DNA of 34,154 nt from Planctomycetota bacterium (lineage in GTDB: Bacteria > Planctomycetota > Planctomycetia > Pirellulales > Thermoguttaceae): contig JAKPGL010000027.1 in NCBI GenBank assembly GCA_029550925.1, positions 1 through 34,154 on the forward strand, read 5' to 3'. Position 1 is the first letter of the stretch. Each line of letters starts with the position of its first letter. The position numbers were made by a program, and so were the translations under genes. The notes beneath the pieces are model-generated. The model ran no database searches, was not told the origin of the DNA, and saw nothing but the letters and a program-made list of their open reading frames with translations. Of this stretch, positions 1 to 5,978 are shown piece after piece.

Positions 1-899
1 AGTTTTTTGATCGGCAGAATCCGTTCTTCGGGCAAACGAATGTTGAGAATCCGCAAGCCGAACTTCTCGCCTACCTTGACCGCTTCCCCCAAAGCAATCG
101 GATACCCGGCGGCTTCCAACTCCAACAGCTCTTCGCACGATTTATCAAAATGGATGATCGAACCGGGACCTAAATCCAAGATTTTGCCCAAAGGATGCTT
201 TTTCCGAGCCAGGGTGACGGAAACCGGAATTTTCACCCGTAAAAGGCTTTTGGAATAAGGAGGCAAATCCCGGAGAGAAACCTTTCCGCCTAGAGCAGAA
301 GCCCCCCCAATACTTGCTGGACCTAAAGAAATTTTGGGGAGCTTCCCAGCGGAAACCGATTGCACGGCCTTTGGAGTGGGGGATTTCGATTCGGCCAGCG
401 TTTGATCGGGTTGGCCGGCAGGCCAAACTAGAAGCGCCATTCCCTGCGCCGTTTTCGCCCCAGAAACCGCCAAGGAAATGGATGTCCCCCCCTCCGTCAA
501 CCCCGCCCGAACTATGGCCTCCCTCAAATTGCCCACCCGACCGGCCCGAAAATCTTCCACCGGAAAGGTTTCCGGAATCACCAGCATTCCCAACTCTTGG
601 GCCAGTGTGGTCAGTTTGGATTGCCCTGTCGGATCAGGACTGGCATACCAAGAGGGAAGAAAGCCGCAACTTTCGGGCAATAAAAATAAGGCCCCTTCGT
701 CGCCTACTTTAAGCACGACCACCAATCCAGGACCATCAAAACCCTCTGGTAGGCTGCTCAGGTCGAGGGCGCCTGCTCGGCCCACATTCACCTGCAAAGA
801 AGTGTCTAAAGCCCGGCCCAAGGCAGCGGCAATCTCGCTGATCCCTGCCTTGCACAACGCTAGGACATCTGCCACTAGTTCTGGGCTTAACTTGGCCAT
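1..899 (-). CDS. FliN/FliM-family (SpoA domain) flagellar motor switch-like protein, 3' end cut by window edge
   Basis: The minus frame is open from ATG at 899 to the left edge: 299 complete codons and no stop, so the C-terminus is missing. Residues about 218-290 read as a SpoA domain. They begin RVKIPVSVTLARKKHPLGKI, continue with a glycine-rich LGPGSII turn and end in GEKFGLRILNI, the layout of FliN and the FliM/FliY C-terminus. In FliN this domain builds the cytoplasmic C-ring of the flagellar rotor. The first 200 residues hold an alpha/beta region (VVVLKVGDEGALFLLPE) and a Ser/Ala-rich linker, so the protein is longer than plain FliN (about 100-140 residues) and closer in size to FliY-like proteins. 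The start follows TTAGGAGT, and an in-frame TGA lies eight codons upstream. SpoA domains also occur in type III secretion rings, so the flagellar role is inferred. No other flagellar gene is in the window. Confidence 0.82.
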   Translation of the reverse strand, partial: MAKLSPELVADVLALCKAGISEIAAALGRALDTSLQVNVGRAGALDLSSLPEGFDGPGLVVVLKVGDEGALFLLPESCGFLPSWYASPDPTGQSKLTTLAQELGMLVIPETFPVEDFRAGRVGNLREAIVRAGLTEGGTSISLAVSGAKTAQGMALLVWPAGQPDQTLAESKSPTPKAVQSVSAGKLPKISLGPASIGGASALGGKVSLRDLPPYSKSLLRVKIPVSVTLARKKHPLGKILDLGPGSIIHFDKSCEELLELEAAGYPIALGEAVKVGEKFGLRILNIRLPEERILPIKK

Positions 900-1253
900 A
901 CTCCTAACCTCTGGGTTCCCCTTTCATATCGGGTTCTATGCCCATAAACTTTGCCCAGAACTTACAAATTGACCCCAAAACCTACTTTCTTGTCCATATT
1001 TTTACCAAAGTACTCAATTTCTCCTATTCTTTTTGTCTTTCTTAATTTCTATAAAATCTTTATCTTAAAATTCCCGACGGGGCCACCCAAAAAAACTCCG
1101 TAGAAAAGCCCGCTTGCTCTCCGGGGCGTGTTCCCCAAAGTCGATCCACCCTACCGGAGTATCTGCCCCCCCTCAATCAAGACTATAGAAAAATCGCAAG
1201 AAGAACAACCCGATCCTCTCTAACAACCCCCCGTCGCTCACCAATAAAGCCGT
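900..1253. other. AT-rich upstream region of the FliN-like gene
   Basis: No convincing reading frame is present. Bases about 965-1080 are strikingly AT-rich compared with the GC-rich coding sequence around them, as expected for a leader or promoter region of the minus-strand gene starting at 899. No clear -35/-10 pair with good spacing stood out. The block lies just downstream of the terminator at 1254-1296, so the FliN-like gene probably has its own promoter here. Confidence 0.4.
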
Positions 1254-1296
1254 AAATAAAAAAGTCGTCAGCACCTCTGGCCGAAGCGCTGACGAC
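1254..1296 (-). terminator. Strong intrinsic terminator, minus strand
   Basis: On the minus strand GTCGTCAGC (1296-1288) pairs perfectly with GCTGACGAC (1272-1264) around a 15-nt loop. The second arm is followed at once by TTTTTTATTT (1263-1254), a classic rho-independent terminator. The nearest minus-strand gene ending upstream is the DUF1080 gene, more than 600 bases away, so the terminator more likely ends a separate RNA or a very long 3' untranslated region. Confidence 0.8.
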
Positions 1297-1440
1297 CATC
1301 TGCAAACCTCCCGAAAGATTGCGACCGGATGCGTCGCTGCGAGACGTGCGGGGGTCAGGCGTGCAACCAGGCACCGCCGGCCAGGGACCCCGGCACACGC
1401 GTATGGGTTGGCACCTCCGTCGGAATCTTTGGGCGGGAGG
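1258..1440 (-). ncRNA. Candidate structured RNA with long-range closing helix and 3' terminator
   Basis: Seen directly: plus bases 1307-1320 (CCTCCCGAAAGATT) are fully complementary to 1424-1430 plus 1434-1440, with only a 3-nt bulge (1431-1433). The helix continues inward with 1322-1325/1419-1422 and 1327-1329/1416-1418, giving about 21 base pairs. The enclosed part can form further helices, including GTGC(C)AACC with GGTTGCAC and a CGTC/GACG hairpin. The terminator at 1254-1296 follows the closing helix by about 10 bases on the minus strand. A codon-like reading frame overlaps, but its product resembles no family. The 5' end is unknown and could lie upstream of 1440. I could not match it to 6S, SRP, tmRNA, RNase P RNA or a riboswitch class. 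Confidence 0.5.
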
Positions 1441-1918
1441 CTTGGTCTCTCCTTTTGAAGTAACCTTCGATCAAATACTTTCTTGGACCGACCTAGGGCG
1501 AGTTCCGAAGCTCCTTCCGGCAAAAGCCTCAACAATATCGGCAAATCCCCGAAAGGACTTGCACGGAAGTTTTCGGAAAATTCTCCCTTTGTCCGGCCGG
1601 GAAACAATCGTCTCTCTATCTCTATTCTACTCTTTTTGGCAAGAACACCAAGAGATATTCAACGGGACCAAAACCGGTTATGTTGTGGGACTTCACCCCG
1701 TATAGGCAGGAAGCTAGCATCCCGATGCTATCACAAGCGGTTGTAGGCCGGAGGCGAGCACGCAACCGGCTCAACGTGGCCCTTTGGCAACCTTTTCTTT
1801 TTTCAGGGGAAGGAACCGAGGCAATCCCGAGATACCCCGCTCCCCCCCGATCCGGCGATCCTCCAAAGCACCCCATCCGGGTCGGAAAGAAAGTTCTATG
1901 GTTCTCTACGACTTCAGG
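1441..1918. other. Gene-free stretch downstream of the DUF1080 gene
   Basis: Open frames here give compositionally biased products without recognisable motifs, and none has a convincing ribosome site. The stretch contains repeat copy A (1671-1771). No other structure was identified. Confidence 0.4.
1671..1771. repeat. Structured intergenic repeat, copy A
   Basis: The element matches copy B (6202-6300) over about 100 bp with many substitutions. The best conserved part is 1714-1742, containing CTAGCAT, GATGCTATC and CAAGCGGTT. TAGCAT/ATGCTA forms a perfect 6-bp hairpin in both copies, with loop CCCG here and TCTTG in copy B. Flanking CCGGTT and AACCGG blocks can pair across the element. A second imperfect pairing, GCGGTTG with CAACCGGC, fits the 3' half. 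Which strand is functional, if either, is unknown. Confidence 0.6.
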
Positions 1919-2953
1919 CTATTTCTCTTTCTTTTCCAGGACCCAGATGTTGCGGTATTGGACTTTATTACCGTGGCCTTGGAAATGGATGGGTCGAGGA
2001 CCGGGGCCTTCGGGTTTTCGGCCAGGAGTGCCTTTGTCCAGTTCGATATTGTCATGGATGACCACGCCGTTATGGCGGATGGTCAACCGGGCGTTGGCCG
2101 TCTTATTGCCCTGGGCGTCATACCGAGGGGCGGTAAACTCAATGTCATAGGTCTGCCATTGCATAGGCGGCAAACACATATTCACCTCAGGCCGACGGAT
2201 GCTGTAAATCCCGCCGCATTCATTATGTTCGCCTTCCAGGCCGAACGAGTCCAGGACCTGCACTTCGTAACAATCGTGCAGATAGACGCCGCTATTGGAT
2301 CGGGCCTGTCCCCGGGCCTCCGGCATCCACGAGAGCCGAAACTCCGCATGGAGGGTATAGTCCTGAAACTGATCTTTCGTCGTAAAACCGCCCAACAGGG
2401 TTTGCATCGGGGTCAAATGCCCCTTTTCTTCGACCCGTTCGTCGCTCGAACCATCAAAGACGACCACCGCCCCGGCAGGCGGTTTTTGTCCGAGGGTGGG
2501 GCTTTTTCGTTCGATCCGCTCCAGGACCATTTTCCCGGTACCGTCAGATGACTGGATCGTCAGTTTCCCGTCGGCGATGGCGCCTTGCATCTTTCGACCT
2601 TCCAACCGGACGGTGTTTTCCTGACGCTGGCCGTCCATGGTGAATCGGTCATCGCCTCGTTTCCATCCATCCCCCGGCAGCCCCCCTCGATACACCACCA
2701 CCTGAAACTTTCCGCCGCCGAGAGCAATCACCTGGGCGCCCACTTTTTCTGGTTTCCCTTTAGCGGGTTTGCCTTCGCCCAGATATTCCCCCTGAAAAGC
2801 AAAATCGGGGTCTTTGGCCGCCTCCTCCGGGTCGATCACCTCCCGATGCGCCCCCAGAGCAGTCAGCCCACCTCCTGCCCATAGAAACAACCCCATCACC
2901 ATGAACACCGCCCCGGCAAACCGACTCTCTCCCAAAGAAAAATACCTTTGCAT
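1919..2953 (-). CDS. Secreted DUF1080 (3-keto-disaccharide hydrolase-like) protein
   Basis: The product has 344 residues. A signal peptide (residues 1 to about 34, hydrophobic GAVFMVMGLFLWAGGG, cleavage near LGA) exports it. The C-terminal half, from about residue 160, is a DUF1080 laminin-G/concanavalin-like beta sandwich: VVVFDGSSDER at its start, FQDYTLHAEFRLSW, a SNSGVYLHDCYEVQVLDSFG core and a final IHFQGHGNKVQYRNIWV strand. Characterised relatives hydrolyse 3-keto-glycosides, and planctomycetes carry many copies. ATG 2953 is preceded by GGAAAGGAGGAATAAGGTG, which decides it over a longer frame. The isomerase/epimerase gene lies 137 bases upstream on the same strand, probably in one operon, which suggests keto-sugar processing. 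The exact substrate cannot be read from the sequence. Confidence 0.88.
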   Translation of the reverse strand: MQRYFSLGESRFAGAVFMVMGLFLWAGGGLTALGAHREVIDPEEAAKDPDFAFQGEYLGEGKPAKGKPEKVGAQVIALGGGKFQVVVYRGGLPGDGWKRGDDRFTMDGQRQENTVRLEGRKMQGAIADGKLTIQSSDGTGKMVLERIERKSPTLGQKPPAGAVVVFDGSSDERVEEKGHLTPMQTLLGGFTTKDQFQDYTLHAEFRLSWMPEARGQARSNSGVYLHDCYEVQVLDSFGLEGEHNECGGIYSIRRPEVNMCLPPMQWQTYDIEFTAPRYDAQGNKTANARLTIRHNGVVIHDNIELDKGTPGRKPEGPGPRPIHFQGHGNKVQYRNIWVLEKKEK

Positions 2954-3090
2954 CACCTTATTCCTCCTTTCCTGAAAAATTAGGGAAGACCTTTGGGTAG
3001 GTAAACGTGGAACAAACAAAACCCCATCGTGGGAAAAACTTCCCCACCGCCGAGGTTGCCGAAACACACTTTCCTTTAATTATCCTTTCA

Positions 3091-3936
3091 TTATGCCACC
3101 AGGGGCCGCAGGAATTCCACACTTTTCCGGATGTTTTCGTCCGTACCGTAGCATTCGATCGACACAGCGCCGCTCCAGTTGGTCTGTTTGAGGTATTGGA
3201 GGCATTTTTTGATGTTTTCCGCATTGACGCCCCCGCCCACAGGGACAAAACTCATGCCGATCCCAGTCTCTTCGCCCCGGCATGCGGCGGCCAGTTCAGG
3301 GCTGACATCCTTGATATGCGCATGGGTCAGGTATTTGCGGAAGTGCGTGAGATATTCCAACGGATTTAAACCGGAGATGAACGTATTGCCCGTATCCATG
3401 TTGAACCGCAGATATTCCGATTCGAAATAGCGGAACAAGCGATCCATGAAGTCGGCGTCGGTCGTGTAGGGGCCGTGCGGTTCGACATTGATGATCACGC
3501 CATAGTCCTCGGCCCACGAGAGGCACTGCCGGTAGTTGTCGCAGGTAATGCGGAACACTTCCTCCCGGCTAAGACCCTCGATCTCGAACGGTCCGTCCAC
3601 GGTATCCACCATGGGACAGCCGATCTCGGCGGCAAAACGGATGGATTGCTGGACGTATTGAATGCCGTAGGCCGAGCCGTCCGGCCCCATCAGCGGATAG
3701 GAACCATCTATCTGGCTTACCTGCAACCCGAGTTTATCCAGGTATTTCCGGAGCTGACGTGGGTTCGACTGTAACGAGATGCCAGGATCATACCCCATGG
3801 CCTGGATGAAGTTCTGCCCATTGATCACGGCGAATTCGATGTGTTTTATGCCGTGTTTGACCGCCGACTGACAGGCCTGTTCAAAACCAGCCGACAGACA
3901 CCGCCAATTATCCGTATGCACCCCTATCTCGATCAT
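3091..3936 (-). CDS. Sugar phosphate isomerase/epimerase, AP-endonuclease-2-like TIM barrel
   Basis: This 281-residue protein has the size and motif order of the xylose isomerase-like TIM-barrel family: IGVHTDNW at the first strand, INVEPHG with a metal-ligand Glu, FNMDTGNTF with the Asp/His-type site, THAHIKD, and SIECYG near the C-terminus. These residues bind a divalent metal in relatives that interconvert keto sugars or their phosphates. No signal peptide is seen, so it should be cytoplasmic. ATG 3936 follows AAAAGGAGAACGGT, and a longer in-frame start lacks such a site. It lies upstream of the DUF1080 gene in the same direction. Family members act on very different substrates, so the reaction is not assigned. 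Confidence 0.85.
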   Translation of the reverse strand: MIEIGVHTDNWRCLSAGFEQACQSAVKHGIKHIEFAVINGQNFIQAMGYDPGISLQSNPRQLRKYLDKLGLQVSQIDGSYPLMGPDGSAYGIQYVQQSIRFAAEIGCPMVDTVDGPFEIEGLSREEVFRITCDNYRQCLSWAEDYGVIINVEPHGPYTTDADFMDRLFRYFESEYLRFNMDTGNTFISGLNPLEYLTHFRKYLTHAHIKDVSPELAAACRGEETGIGMSFVPVGGGVNAENIKKCLQYLKQTNWSGAVSIECYGTDENIRKSVEFLRPLVA

Positions 3937-4287
3937 ACCGTTCTCCTTTTGTAGAGGCAGGGAAAGACACATCGCCTAAATACAGGAAGTTTTTCTATCT
4001 CACGGCAAACCCAAATGGCGCAAAGCCTCCGTCTCGAGGGATCGAGGAATATAGGAAAGGAATATAGGAGGCGTCGGCTCTCCGGTTTAGAGGCGGCCCT
4101 GCCGCCCAGACCCGTGTAATCCTTGTCAAAATACGCTGGCCGTCCTTCAGATTCAAGCGGCCCTGCTGCTTTTGGGAGGGAATTTTCTGCGGGGAGTGCT
4201 TTCCCGAAGCTTCTGAGCATTTATAATATACCAACAAGGTTTGCCCCGGTAGGTGGTTTTGAATGTCCTTATCAAAGGAGGTGTCCT
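3937..4287. other. Divergent intergenic region between isomerase and bacterioferritin genes
   Basis: This 351-base gap separates two outward-facing genes and should hold both promoters. A perfect -10-like TATAAT sits at 4222-4227, about 60 bases before the bacterioferritin start, but the matching -35 position (about 4199-4204) is poor. No iron-box-like palindrome (Fur) was recognised by eye. No small gene is supported. Confidence 0.45.
4222..4227 (+). promoter_or_regulatory. -10-like box upstream of bacterioferritin gene
   Basis: TATAAT lies in the AT-rich context ATTTATAATATACC, 60 bases upstream of GTG 4288. The -35 region is weak, so the promoter may need an activator or may use a different sigma factor. 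Confidence 0.35.
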
Positions 4288-4791
4288 GTGCACGAAAAAA
4301 GTATTGCCCTACTGAATCAGGCGGTGTCCGAGGAATTGGCCGCCGTGCATCAGTATATGTATTTTCATTTCCATTGCGACGACCAGGGCTACGATCCCTT
4401 GTCCGCTCTGTTCCGGGCCATCGCCATCCAAGAGATGCTCCATGTAGAACGGCTGGCCGAACGAATTCTTTTCCTCAAAGGCGAAGTGGAAATGGTCCTG
4501 GCTGCCCCGGTCGAAAAAATCCACGATGTTCCGAAAATGCTGGAAATGGCCCGACGGTTGGAACAGGAAGCCATCGAACATTACAACCAATTCGCCAACC
4601 AGTGCGCCGCCCACGGCGACGCCGTTTCTAAGCGACTGTTCGAAGACCTTCTGGTTCAAGAAGAACAACACTACGATCAATTCGATCAGGAGATCGACAA
4701 CCTGGCCCGCTTCGGCCAAAATTACCTGGCCTTGCAGTCGATCGAACGGGCCAAGGCCCAAGCGTCCGGCGCCCCGCCGGAGTCGGCCTGA
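4288..4791 (+). CDS. bfr: Bacterioferritin
   Basis: The product has 167 residues, close to the family's usual length of about 158, and forms a four-helix ferritin fold. Ferroxidase residues are visible: E16 (EELAAVHQY), E49 and H52 (QEMLHVERL), E92 or E94, and E125 with H128 (QEEQHYDQF). M50, between E49 and H52, matches the haem-ligand methionine of bacterioferritins, which favours Bfr over plain ferritin. The C-terminal FGQNYLALQSIERA matches the Bfr C-terminal helix. The protein oxidises Fe(II) and stores it as ferric mineral in a 24-mer shell in the cytoplasm. The start is GTG 4288, six bases after AAAGGAGG; there is no equally good ATG. The cytochrome gene follows after 71 bases, probably co-transcribed. 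Confidence 0.93.
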   Translation: MHEKSIALLNQAVSEELAAVHQYMYFHFHCDDQGYDPLSALFRAIAIQEMLHVERLAERILFLKGEVEMVLAAPVEKIHDVPKMLEMARRLEQEAIEHYNQFANQCAAHGDAVSKRLFEDLLVQEEQHYDQFDQEIDNLARFGQNYLALQSIERAKAQASGAPPESA

Positions 4792-4862
4792 GTATAACCC
4801 GACGTTTTGGGAATGGTTTTTCACAAATGTTTCTTTCCACAGAAAGGAGAAAGGGCTTTCCG

Positions 4863-5978
4863 ATGAAGTCTGCCTGTGTCTCGCGTACTGTATTGACGCT
4901 TGTTTTGGTGGGAATGTTCGGAGGCGTTTGGTTGTTGGGCGGCTGCGGTTCAGAGACGGCCAAACCGAAACCAGGTCCTCAACCCTCTGCTCCGTCTTCC
5001 GAAGGGCCTGCCTCTGCCAAACCCATCGCCCCGGAACCGCCGCCCCCCCAACCAACTCCCGGTCCCGAAAAACCGGCTGCCGAACCGAAACCTTCGACGC
5101 CGGCGGAAAAAGAAAAACCGGAGGAAAAGGCGCCTCCTGGGAAGGAGGAAAAACCCGCTCCTGCTCCTGAAGAAAAAGAAAAACCGTCGGCCCCGCCGAG
5201 CACCCCCACCCAACCCAAGCAGGAACCCAGCCCGGCGACTCCGCCTGCGGAAAAGCCTGCGGCGGCTGGCGCGGAGGATCGTTCTCCTACTGCTAAGGTT
5301 TCCAGTTACGCCCCCGCCGAAGATTTAGAGGCCCAGATGGAGCAATATCTCAAAGACTTCCAGGACGCGGTCGCCAGTGAAGATGCTTTCAAAGAAGCCG
5401 AAGGGAAAATCTCCAAGGACGCCAATACGCTGATTGTCATGGCGTTGGCCCTGGGGCTGCACGACCAACAGAACAAGTATCAGAAGGCGGCGCCGGCCCT
5501 GATCGCGGCGGCCAAGCAACTGACCTCGGTCAAGGACTTGAACTCGGCCAAAAAAGCCATTGAAGCCCTAACCACAGCGGCCAGCAGTCAGGGTGATCCC
5601 AGCAGCCTCAAGTGGGAAAAAGCGGCGAAGCTCGAAGAACTGATGAAGGCCGTCCCCTTGATCAGCAATAAGATCAAGGATTCCTCTCTGACCGCCGCCC
5701 GGCTGGAAAAACGGGGCAAAGACTATGCGGGCTATGCGGCCGTTTTGGCCGTCATCGCTCAAGGTTCCTTGCCCAATGCCGACGAAACGGAAAAACCTAC
5801 CGAAGTGGCAAAGTGGCAGCAGTTTTGTCTCCAGATGCGGAGTGCGGCGGCTGAGTTGAATGCAGCCATCCGGGCCAAAAACGCCGAGGCGGCCTTAAAA
5901 GCCAATGCCAAACTACGTCAAAGCTGCGATGACTGCCATGCGGTCTTCCATACCAAGCAGGAGGCCAGTAAGCAGTAA
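4863..5978 (+). CDS. Lipoprotein class II (c'-like) cytochrome c with long Pro/Glu/Lys linker
   Basis: The product has 371 residues. The N-terminus is a lipoprotein signal ending in LLGGC (lipidated C28). Residues about 30-150 are a low-complexity Pro/Ala/Glu/Lys spacer. Residues about 155-371 are helical and end with C355-D-D-C358-H359, the single haem c site close to the C-terminus as in four-helix class II cytochromes. The haem domain is therefore tethered outside the cytoplasmic membrane on a flexible arm. ATG 4863 follows AGAAAGGAGAAAGGG. The bacterioferritin gene is 71 bases upstream and the terminator at 6092 lies downstream, so the two genes likely form one transcript. An electron-transfer role is inferred from the haem site; the partner is unknown. 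Confidence 0.85.
   Translation: MKSACVSRTVLTLVLVGMFGGVWLLGGCGSETAKPKPGPQPSAPSSEGPASAKPIAPEPPPPQPTPGPEKPAAEPKPSTPAEKEKPEEKAPPGKEEKPAPAPEEKEKPSAPPSTPTQPKQEPSPATPPAEKPAAAGAEDRSPTAKVSSYAPAEDLEAQMEQYLKDFQDAVASEDAFKEAEGKISKDANTLIVMALALGLHDQQNKYQKAAPALIAAAKQLTSVKDLNSAKKAIEALTTAASSQGDPSSLKWEKAAKLEELMKAVPLISNKIKDSSLTAARLEKRGKDYAGYAAVLAVIAQGSLPNADETEKPTEVAKWQQFCLQMRSAAAELNAAIRAKNAEAALKANAKLRQSCDDCHAVFHTKQEASKQ

Follow-up and report, generated by a model that had tools for sequence, protein, structure and literature searches.

A new family of structured small RNAs predicted in Pirellulales and a sister family within Planctomycetia

The minus strand of a planctomycete contig very probably encodes an independent structured RNA of no known class, as an earlier note on this DNA had proposed. 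This reading is supported by the homologues found, by their covariation, by the terminator-like sites conserved among them, and by the fact that no Rfam family matches at its cut-off. The contig (GenBank assembly GCA_029550925.1, JAKPGL010000027.1) was analyzed over positions 1 to 34,154, hereafter the window (34,154 nucleotides), and the genus that it comes from lies within the Thermoguttaceae, a family of the order Pirellulales in the class Planctomycetia. By comparing genomes at the sequence level, we found that the RNA has homologues, is nearly always present in one copy, covaries in structure, is followed by a terminator-like site, lacks a general open reading frame, and is distinct from the 6S RNA gene. 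We further infer a discrete transcript that works in trans. Taken as a whole, the explanation that we favor and regard as reasonably likely is a stand-alone small RNA gene of about 200 nt, representing a new family, whose trans-acting product binds a protein at its junction. The novelty lies in the family and not in the kind of molecule, as small structured RNAs are well known in general.

A conserved block in a gene-poor interval

As the earlier note had claimed, the surroundings of the RNA are free of genes on the minus strand, with the upstream gene ending at 1919 and the downstream gene starting at 899. The former encodes a 3-keto-disaccharide hydrolase-like protein (Pfam PF06439). The latter, on the same strand and about 360 nt downstream of the RNA, encodes a FliN-like protein (FliMN_C). 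Within this interval, the block and its predicted transcript are located as follows:

1255-1449, minus strand: conserved RNA block, core plus terminator (93% identity in two genus mates; query positions 22-216)
about 1462 to 1258, minus strand: predicted transcript, with a putative start

In the two genus mates, similarity is confined to 1255-1449, and the flanks right outside are not conserved. The match of covariance model R1, built from 33 sequences, spans 1302-1451 of the window.

The note had named translation as a possible refutation, and we looked for it in 95 homologues. Each of the six frames is open across the core in merely 19 to 37 of them, and the two overlapping open reading frames of the RNA region have no Pfam match. 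On both counts, a protein-coding region was rejected. On the plus strand, the window also contains a ferritin-like gene (4123-4791, PF00210) and an open reading frame (4827-5978) whose product has a long stretch rich in proline, lysine, and glutamate and carries CxxCH (CDDCH) at its C-terminal side; by eye it looks like a c-type cytochrome.

Covariation supports a three-way junction

Folding of the minus strand of 1240-1460 yielded -96.2 kcal/mol, compared with -80.3 ± 4.6 kcal/mol in shuffled sequences (z = -3.43; 0 of 200 shuffles). For the window sequence alone, and with the pseudoknot left out of the count, a rod fold (-96.2 kcal/mol) and a junction fold (-93.6 kcal/mol) are close. The fold predicted for the family is a three-way junction of a closing helix (P1), an arm (P2), and a hairpin (P3), with the following elements:

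1434-1444, minus strand: P1 closing helix, 5' strand, pairs with 1303-1313
1303-1313, minus strand: P1 closing helix, 3' strand, pairs with 1434-1444
1424-1430, minus strand: P1 inner extension AAAGAUU, 5' strand, pairs with 1314-1320
1314-1320, minus strand: P1 inner extension, 3' strand, pairs with 1424-1430
1411-1418, minus strand: J1/2 strand GGAGGUGC, probable 5' pseudoknot partner (permutation test)
1386-1400, minus strand: P2 arm, 5' side GCG, GUGC, GGGGUC (helices 4 and 5)
1357-1385, minus strand: apical part of P2 with hairpin GUGC/GCAC (helices 6 and 7), apical loop of three columns and poorly conserved
1339-1356, minus strand: P2 arm, 3' side GACCCC, GCAC, CGC (helices 4 and 5)
1321-1337, minus strand: P3 hairpin GCGAC-GCAUCCG-GUCGC (helix 8), the most conserved helix, 96.4% of cells paired
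1327-1332, minus strand: P3 loop GCAUCC, probable 3' pseudoknot partner (permutation test)

We examined this structure in two alignments. The first, A1, was made with MAFFT and is model-free; it comprises 33 loci, the window's own included, chosen from the matches of a 231-base query, with the weak loci L035 and L036 judged by their core. In A1, 24 of the 44 pairs vary on both sides, a number reached in 0 of 500 shuffles. The second, A2, holds 95 sequences chosen for diversity from the query and R1 matches, a non-random set in which every member had matched beforehand, and it was fitted to the covariance model and thus leans toward the model's structure. With this leaning, 41 of its 44 pairs vary on both sides (a count reached by none of 500 shuffles), its covariation score is 0.491 (0.186 in shuffles and at most 0.104 with the partners slid), and 92.2% of cells are paired (75.3% in shuffles and at most 45.0% with the partners slid). 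So much covariation implies that selection keeps the fold, and a function is therefore to be expected.

The helices differ in how they vary among the 95 homologues. For its long-range helix, the earlier note had proposed a comparison with relatives; we ran it, and in the outer modelled helix of P1 all 11 pairs vary on both sides. The inner extension of P1 is family-wide only in its AUU/AAU part (helix 3, 89.5% of cells paired). Helices 4 and 5 of P2 are paired in 98.9% and 96.5% of cells, and 13/13 of their pairs vary on both sides. P3, in which 1337-1333 pairs with 1325-1321, is near-invariant; two of its five pairs vary on both sides, chiefly through replacement of GCGAC/GTCGC by GCGGC/GCCGC. 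The long-range helix as first described joined 1307-1329 to 1416-1440 through about 21 pairs. Its outer part stands, and its inner CGAC/GTCG pairs compete with P3: they are complete in 44 of the 92 comparable rows (of 95), compared with 82 of 92 for P3. From the alignment, the local hairpin P3 probably replaces these inner few pairs.

Conservation of the letters themselves is highest in the P3 stem and J2/3 (mean majority frequencies of 0.95 and 0.90). It is lower in P2 (0.76), J1/2 (0.75), P1 (0.70), and the P3 loop (0.68), and lowest in the P2 apical loop (0.48 over three columns). J1/2 overall is not more conserved than the helices. When duplexes between J1/2 and the P3 loop were computed, the natural combinations had a mean of -5.9 kcal/mol, compared with -5.2 kcal/mol for permuted ones (0 of 300 permutations, kinship ignored). 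The same test on the 51 distinct combinations, again ignoring kinship, found 0 of 500 permutations as stable, and most of the 51 set a C/U-rich loop against a purine-rich J1/2. J1/2 thus probably pairs with the P3 loop as a pseudoknot, a grade that we keep at probable because the permutation statistic ignores kinship.

A terminator follows the RNA

The following terminator and promoter-like elements flank the core:

1258-1297, minus strand: intrinsic terminator, 15-pair stem (1297-1263) and U run, tail TTTTTATTTA
1469-1475, minus strand: possible -10-like element TTTGATC, weak, in the alignment opposite TGCCGATA-type elements of homologues
1492-1498, minus strand: possible -35-like element CCCTAGG, 16 nt before the -10-like element, in the alignment opposite CCGTAGG/CCGCAAG of homologues
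1536-1562, minus strand: alternative promoter-like GCAAG (1562-1558), 14 nt, and TGCCGATA (1543-1536), lacking in the two genus mates

The RNA was said to have its own intrinsic terminator, and the 15-pair stem with its U-run tail confirms this. Of the 13 terminator-like sites in 1-4000 (mean of 6.0 in shuffled sequences), no other is as long. By a crude scan, a terminator-like site lies within 100 bases 3' of the RNA in 83 of the 95 homologues, compared with 93 of 758 control windows from the same loci.

At the 5' end, a consensus promoter scan of 1-4000 found none. GCCGAT occurs in the window 91 bases before the model start. Near the RNA (1498-1492, 1475-1469), the window's version of the promoter-like pattern is loose, and a better one lies at 1562-1536. 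The motif GCCGA[TC] occurs in the 150 nt preceding the RNA at 60 of the 95 loci, compared with 209 of 774 and 716 of 3235 control windows, and in several relatives TGCCGATA follows GCAAG after about 14-15 bases. We take the upstream GCCGATA to resemble the -10 element of a FliA-type sigma factor. The -10-like TGCCGATA (e.g., upstream of loci L012, L005, and L044) presumably resembles both the FliA-type -10 and the 6S bubble GAGCCGATA, a likeness that may reflect a shared form of the polymerase.

Two wider ideas about these upstream elements were rejected. With one mismatch allowed, the exact promoter pattern had 86 matches in 10 genomes and its reversed control 93; being no commoner than the control, it does not define a promoter regulon. 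A flagellar link through FliA was likewise dropped: all 40 genomes examined have FliA_WhiG matches (E ≤ 1e-10), 38 of them over the cut-off, and since these include genomes with and without the RNA, presence of the factor does not discriminate.

Distribution within Planctomycetia

Besides its own genome, the 231-base query hit 30 of 59 relatives at E < 1e-4, with the two genus mates 93% identical. Model R1 matched 170 of 196 Pirellulales genomes, with one match each except for G076, which has two. In a sample of the phylum, R1 matched 24 of 244 genomes, namely all five Pirellulales and 19 of the 20 members of one sister family (f21), and had no match in the other 219. Model R2, built from the 95 sequences, matched 95 of 198 genomes in a sample of the class; among the non-matching genomes listed are at least G053 and 19 genomes of families f93-f96, with 83 further genomes also non-matching. 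In single-contig genome G026 (4,810,751 bp), taken as Thermogutta terrifontis R1, the RNA lies on the plus strand at 2,927,736-2,927,886. As sampled, the family is known so far only from Pirellulales and one sister family of Planctomycetia.

R1 had no match in 26 of the 196 Pirellulales genomes (including G041, G031, G019, and G010), although weak matches may escape the stricter filters that we used in searches over more than 40 genomes. When R2 was run with looser filters on 24 genomes that had no match or for which none was known, nine gave anything at E ≤ 5, and only G011 (85 bits) and G027 (43 bits) were clear. G027 is one of the 26 that R1 had not matched. The negatives, among them the one-contig genome G041, suggest loss or strong divergence, so that the RNA would be dispensable in some lineages or diverged there. 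Of the 20 R1-negative Pirellulales listed (of 26), 13 belong to the window's family. Plasmids searched had no match. In viral contigs, 46 stretches carry a short conserved motif, with no convincing model match among them (best 16.9 bits, E 0.11).

Gene context and possible function

The position of the RNA about 360 nt upstream of the FliN-like gene, on the same strand, raises the possibility of a cis-acting leader or riboswitch of the downstream gene, and a long leader of this gene had indeed been suggested. We compared neighbors at the 95 loci using a simple open reading frame heuristic that reached at most about 1.5 kb to either side. Relatives of the window's FliN-like gene, as judged by clustering, turned up at three of the 95 loci, all in the window's genus, and the suggestion is not supported. 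The downstream gene varies so much that the largest downstream cluster covers five loci, and the FliN leader was rejected. In addition, the 15-pair terminator stands between the RNA and the FliN-like gene, and its stem does not overlap P1. A cis-acting role is therefore extremely unlikely. The commonest shared neighbor overall is instead the upstream hydrolase-like gene, and genes clustering with the PF06439 gene lie upstream on the same strand at 16 of the 95 loci, the window included. This arrangement would suit an RNA processed from the 3' end of the hydrolase-like messenger. However, the same heuristic did not find that neighbor at the other 79 loci, and the excess of GCCGA[TC] upstream of the RNA relative to control windows also counts against it, leaving this origin very improbable.

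For the stand-alone RNA that we prefer, transcription would begin shortly before P1, the RNA would fold into the P1/P2/P3 three-way junction, with J1/2 and the P3 loop probably locking it as a pseudoknot, and the transcript would end at its own terminator. Our best guess is that the junction would then be a platform for a protein, and that the resulting ribonucleoprotein (RNP) would serve a general cell function in trans. Given an independent structured RNA, we put such a trans-acting, protein-bound mechanism at slightly better than even. It is favored because conservation peaks in P3, J2/3, and parts of J1/2, away from the loops that could act as a seed, and because the one seed-capable loop varies together with its intramolecular partner. 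The main rival remains a regulator that base-pairs in trans, its C-rich P3 loop binding the ribosome-binding sites of targets and being masked by the GGAGG-like J1/2 until release. The C/U-rich loop opposite a purine-rich J1/2 in most combinations and the terminator-like site with its U run are what such a regulator would have. Nevertheless, conservation of the P3 loop is moderate, and the loop covaries with J1/2 as in a structural pseudoknot, unlike a seed held fixed by its target. We therefore consider base-pairing with targets unlikely.

RNase P, SRP, and tmRNA are housekeeping RNAs. A tentative extension of the protein-bound reading, to which we give somewhat less than an even chance, is that the new RNA is an uncatalogued housekeeping RNA of Planctomycetia, predating the split between Pirellulales and the sister family and forming a dedicated RNP that acts beside 6S, RNase P, SRP, and tmRNA in general gene expression. 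Should the new RNA itself be confirmed, most members of a large bacterial order would have one copy of a so far uncatalogued RNA. The covariance model and the position in cultured Thermogutta terrifontis make the RNA directly testable.

Comparison with 6S RNA and other known RNAs

The absence of a known class was checked with cmscan, and no Rfam family reached its cut-off: at gathering thresholds, the whole window had 0 matches, including to RNase P, SRP, and tmRNA. A relaxed scan of 900-1925 (E up to 10) gave a single weak match, at 1788-1876 and thus off the RNA. Across 20 divergent homologue loci, relaxed cmscan gave nine weak sub-cut-off matches, one of which touches the RNA; at locus L110, RF02837 scored 24.7 bits (cut-off 49.5; E 0.15), on the same strand, touching the 3' edge and the terminator.

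The known RNA that comes closest is 6S. 6S RNA binds RNA polymerase and templates product RNA, and some bacteria have two 6S RNAs. Its layout consists of a closing stem, an open middle with a small hairpin on the 3' side, and a long terminal arm. A 6S-type, polymerase-binding RNA, be it the planctomycete 6S so far missing or an additional one, would account for the similar layout and length of the new RNA. It would also fit the published annotation of T. terrifontis, which reports no 6S there and refers to two other Pirellulales as lacking it (PMC5673643).

Several results weigh against such an RNA. RF00013 was unmatched in the window, in 900-1925, and in the 20 divergent loci at E up to 10. 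In the phylum sample, RF00013 matched 115 of 244 genomes at E ≤ 0.05 (64 over the cut-off), including 16 of the 20 in the sister family and none of the five Pirellulales. Fifteen of the 20 sister-family genomes have an RF00013 match as well as the new RNA, each at its own place, and in 11 of these the 6S match is over the cut-off; the idea that the new RNA is the genome's 6S gene was rejected on this ground. With looser filters, divergent sub-cut-off RF00013 matches of 209-223 nt, mutually similar, appeared in Pirellulales genomes (G012, G028, G037, G054, and G089), and in the first four of these the new RNA lies at another place. A blastn search with the 6S-like sequence of G012 matched 28 of 60 genomes (itself included, some partially), with no match in the window's genus or G026, and no 6S was found in the window's own genome. 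To our knowledge, a pseudoknot with the P3 loop and a conserved junction are not features of 6S. Because the two RNAs lie at separate places and the new one has no RF00013 match, a missing 6S is excluded and a second 6S is made less likely; overall, a 6S-type identity is very unlikely. The sub-cut-off RF00013 matches align with one another, and four share GAGCCGATA, with L190 differing by one base; we take GAGCCGATA to be the sequence found in Escherichia coli 6S.

In sum, 6S (RF00013) and the new RNA are alike in being stand-alone RNAs of about 200 nt with a closing stem, an open middle with a small 3' hairpin, and a terminal arm; the new RNA differs in its three-way junction, probable pseudoknot, and other conserved sequences. 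Titles and abstract openings from part of the literature on planctomycete small RNAs and RNA motifs describe no such RNA. The Rhodopirellula-1 motif is also a structured RNA candidate found in Planctomycetes among others, given in a row without an Rfam number in the part of Weinberg et al. (2010; PMC2864571) that lists it. That listing calls its status as an RNA ambiguous, gives it a probable cis-regulatory role, and includes Proteobacteria among its carriers; it is by this description only that the new RNA is set apart from it. RNase P, SRP, and tmRNA differ in that they were separately identified by Infernal in T. terrifontis, according to its annotation (PMC5673643), and this organism also has the new RNA.
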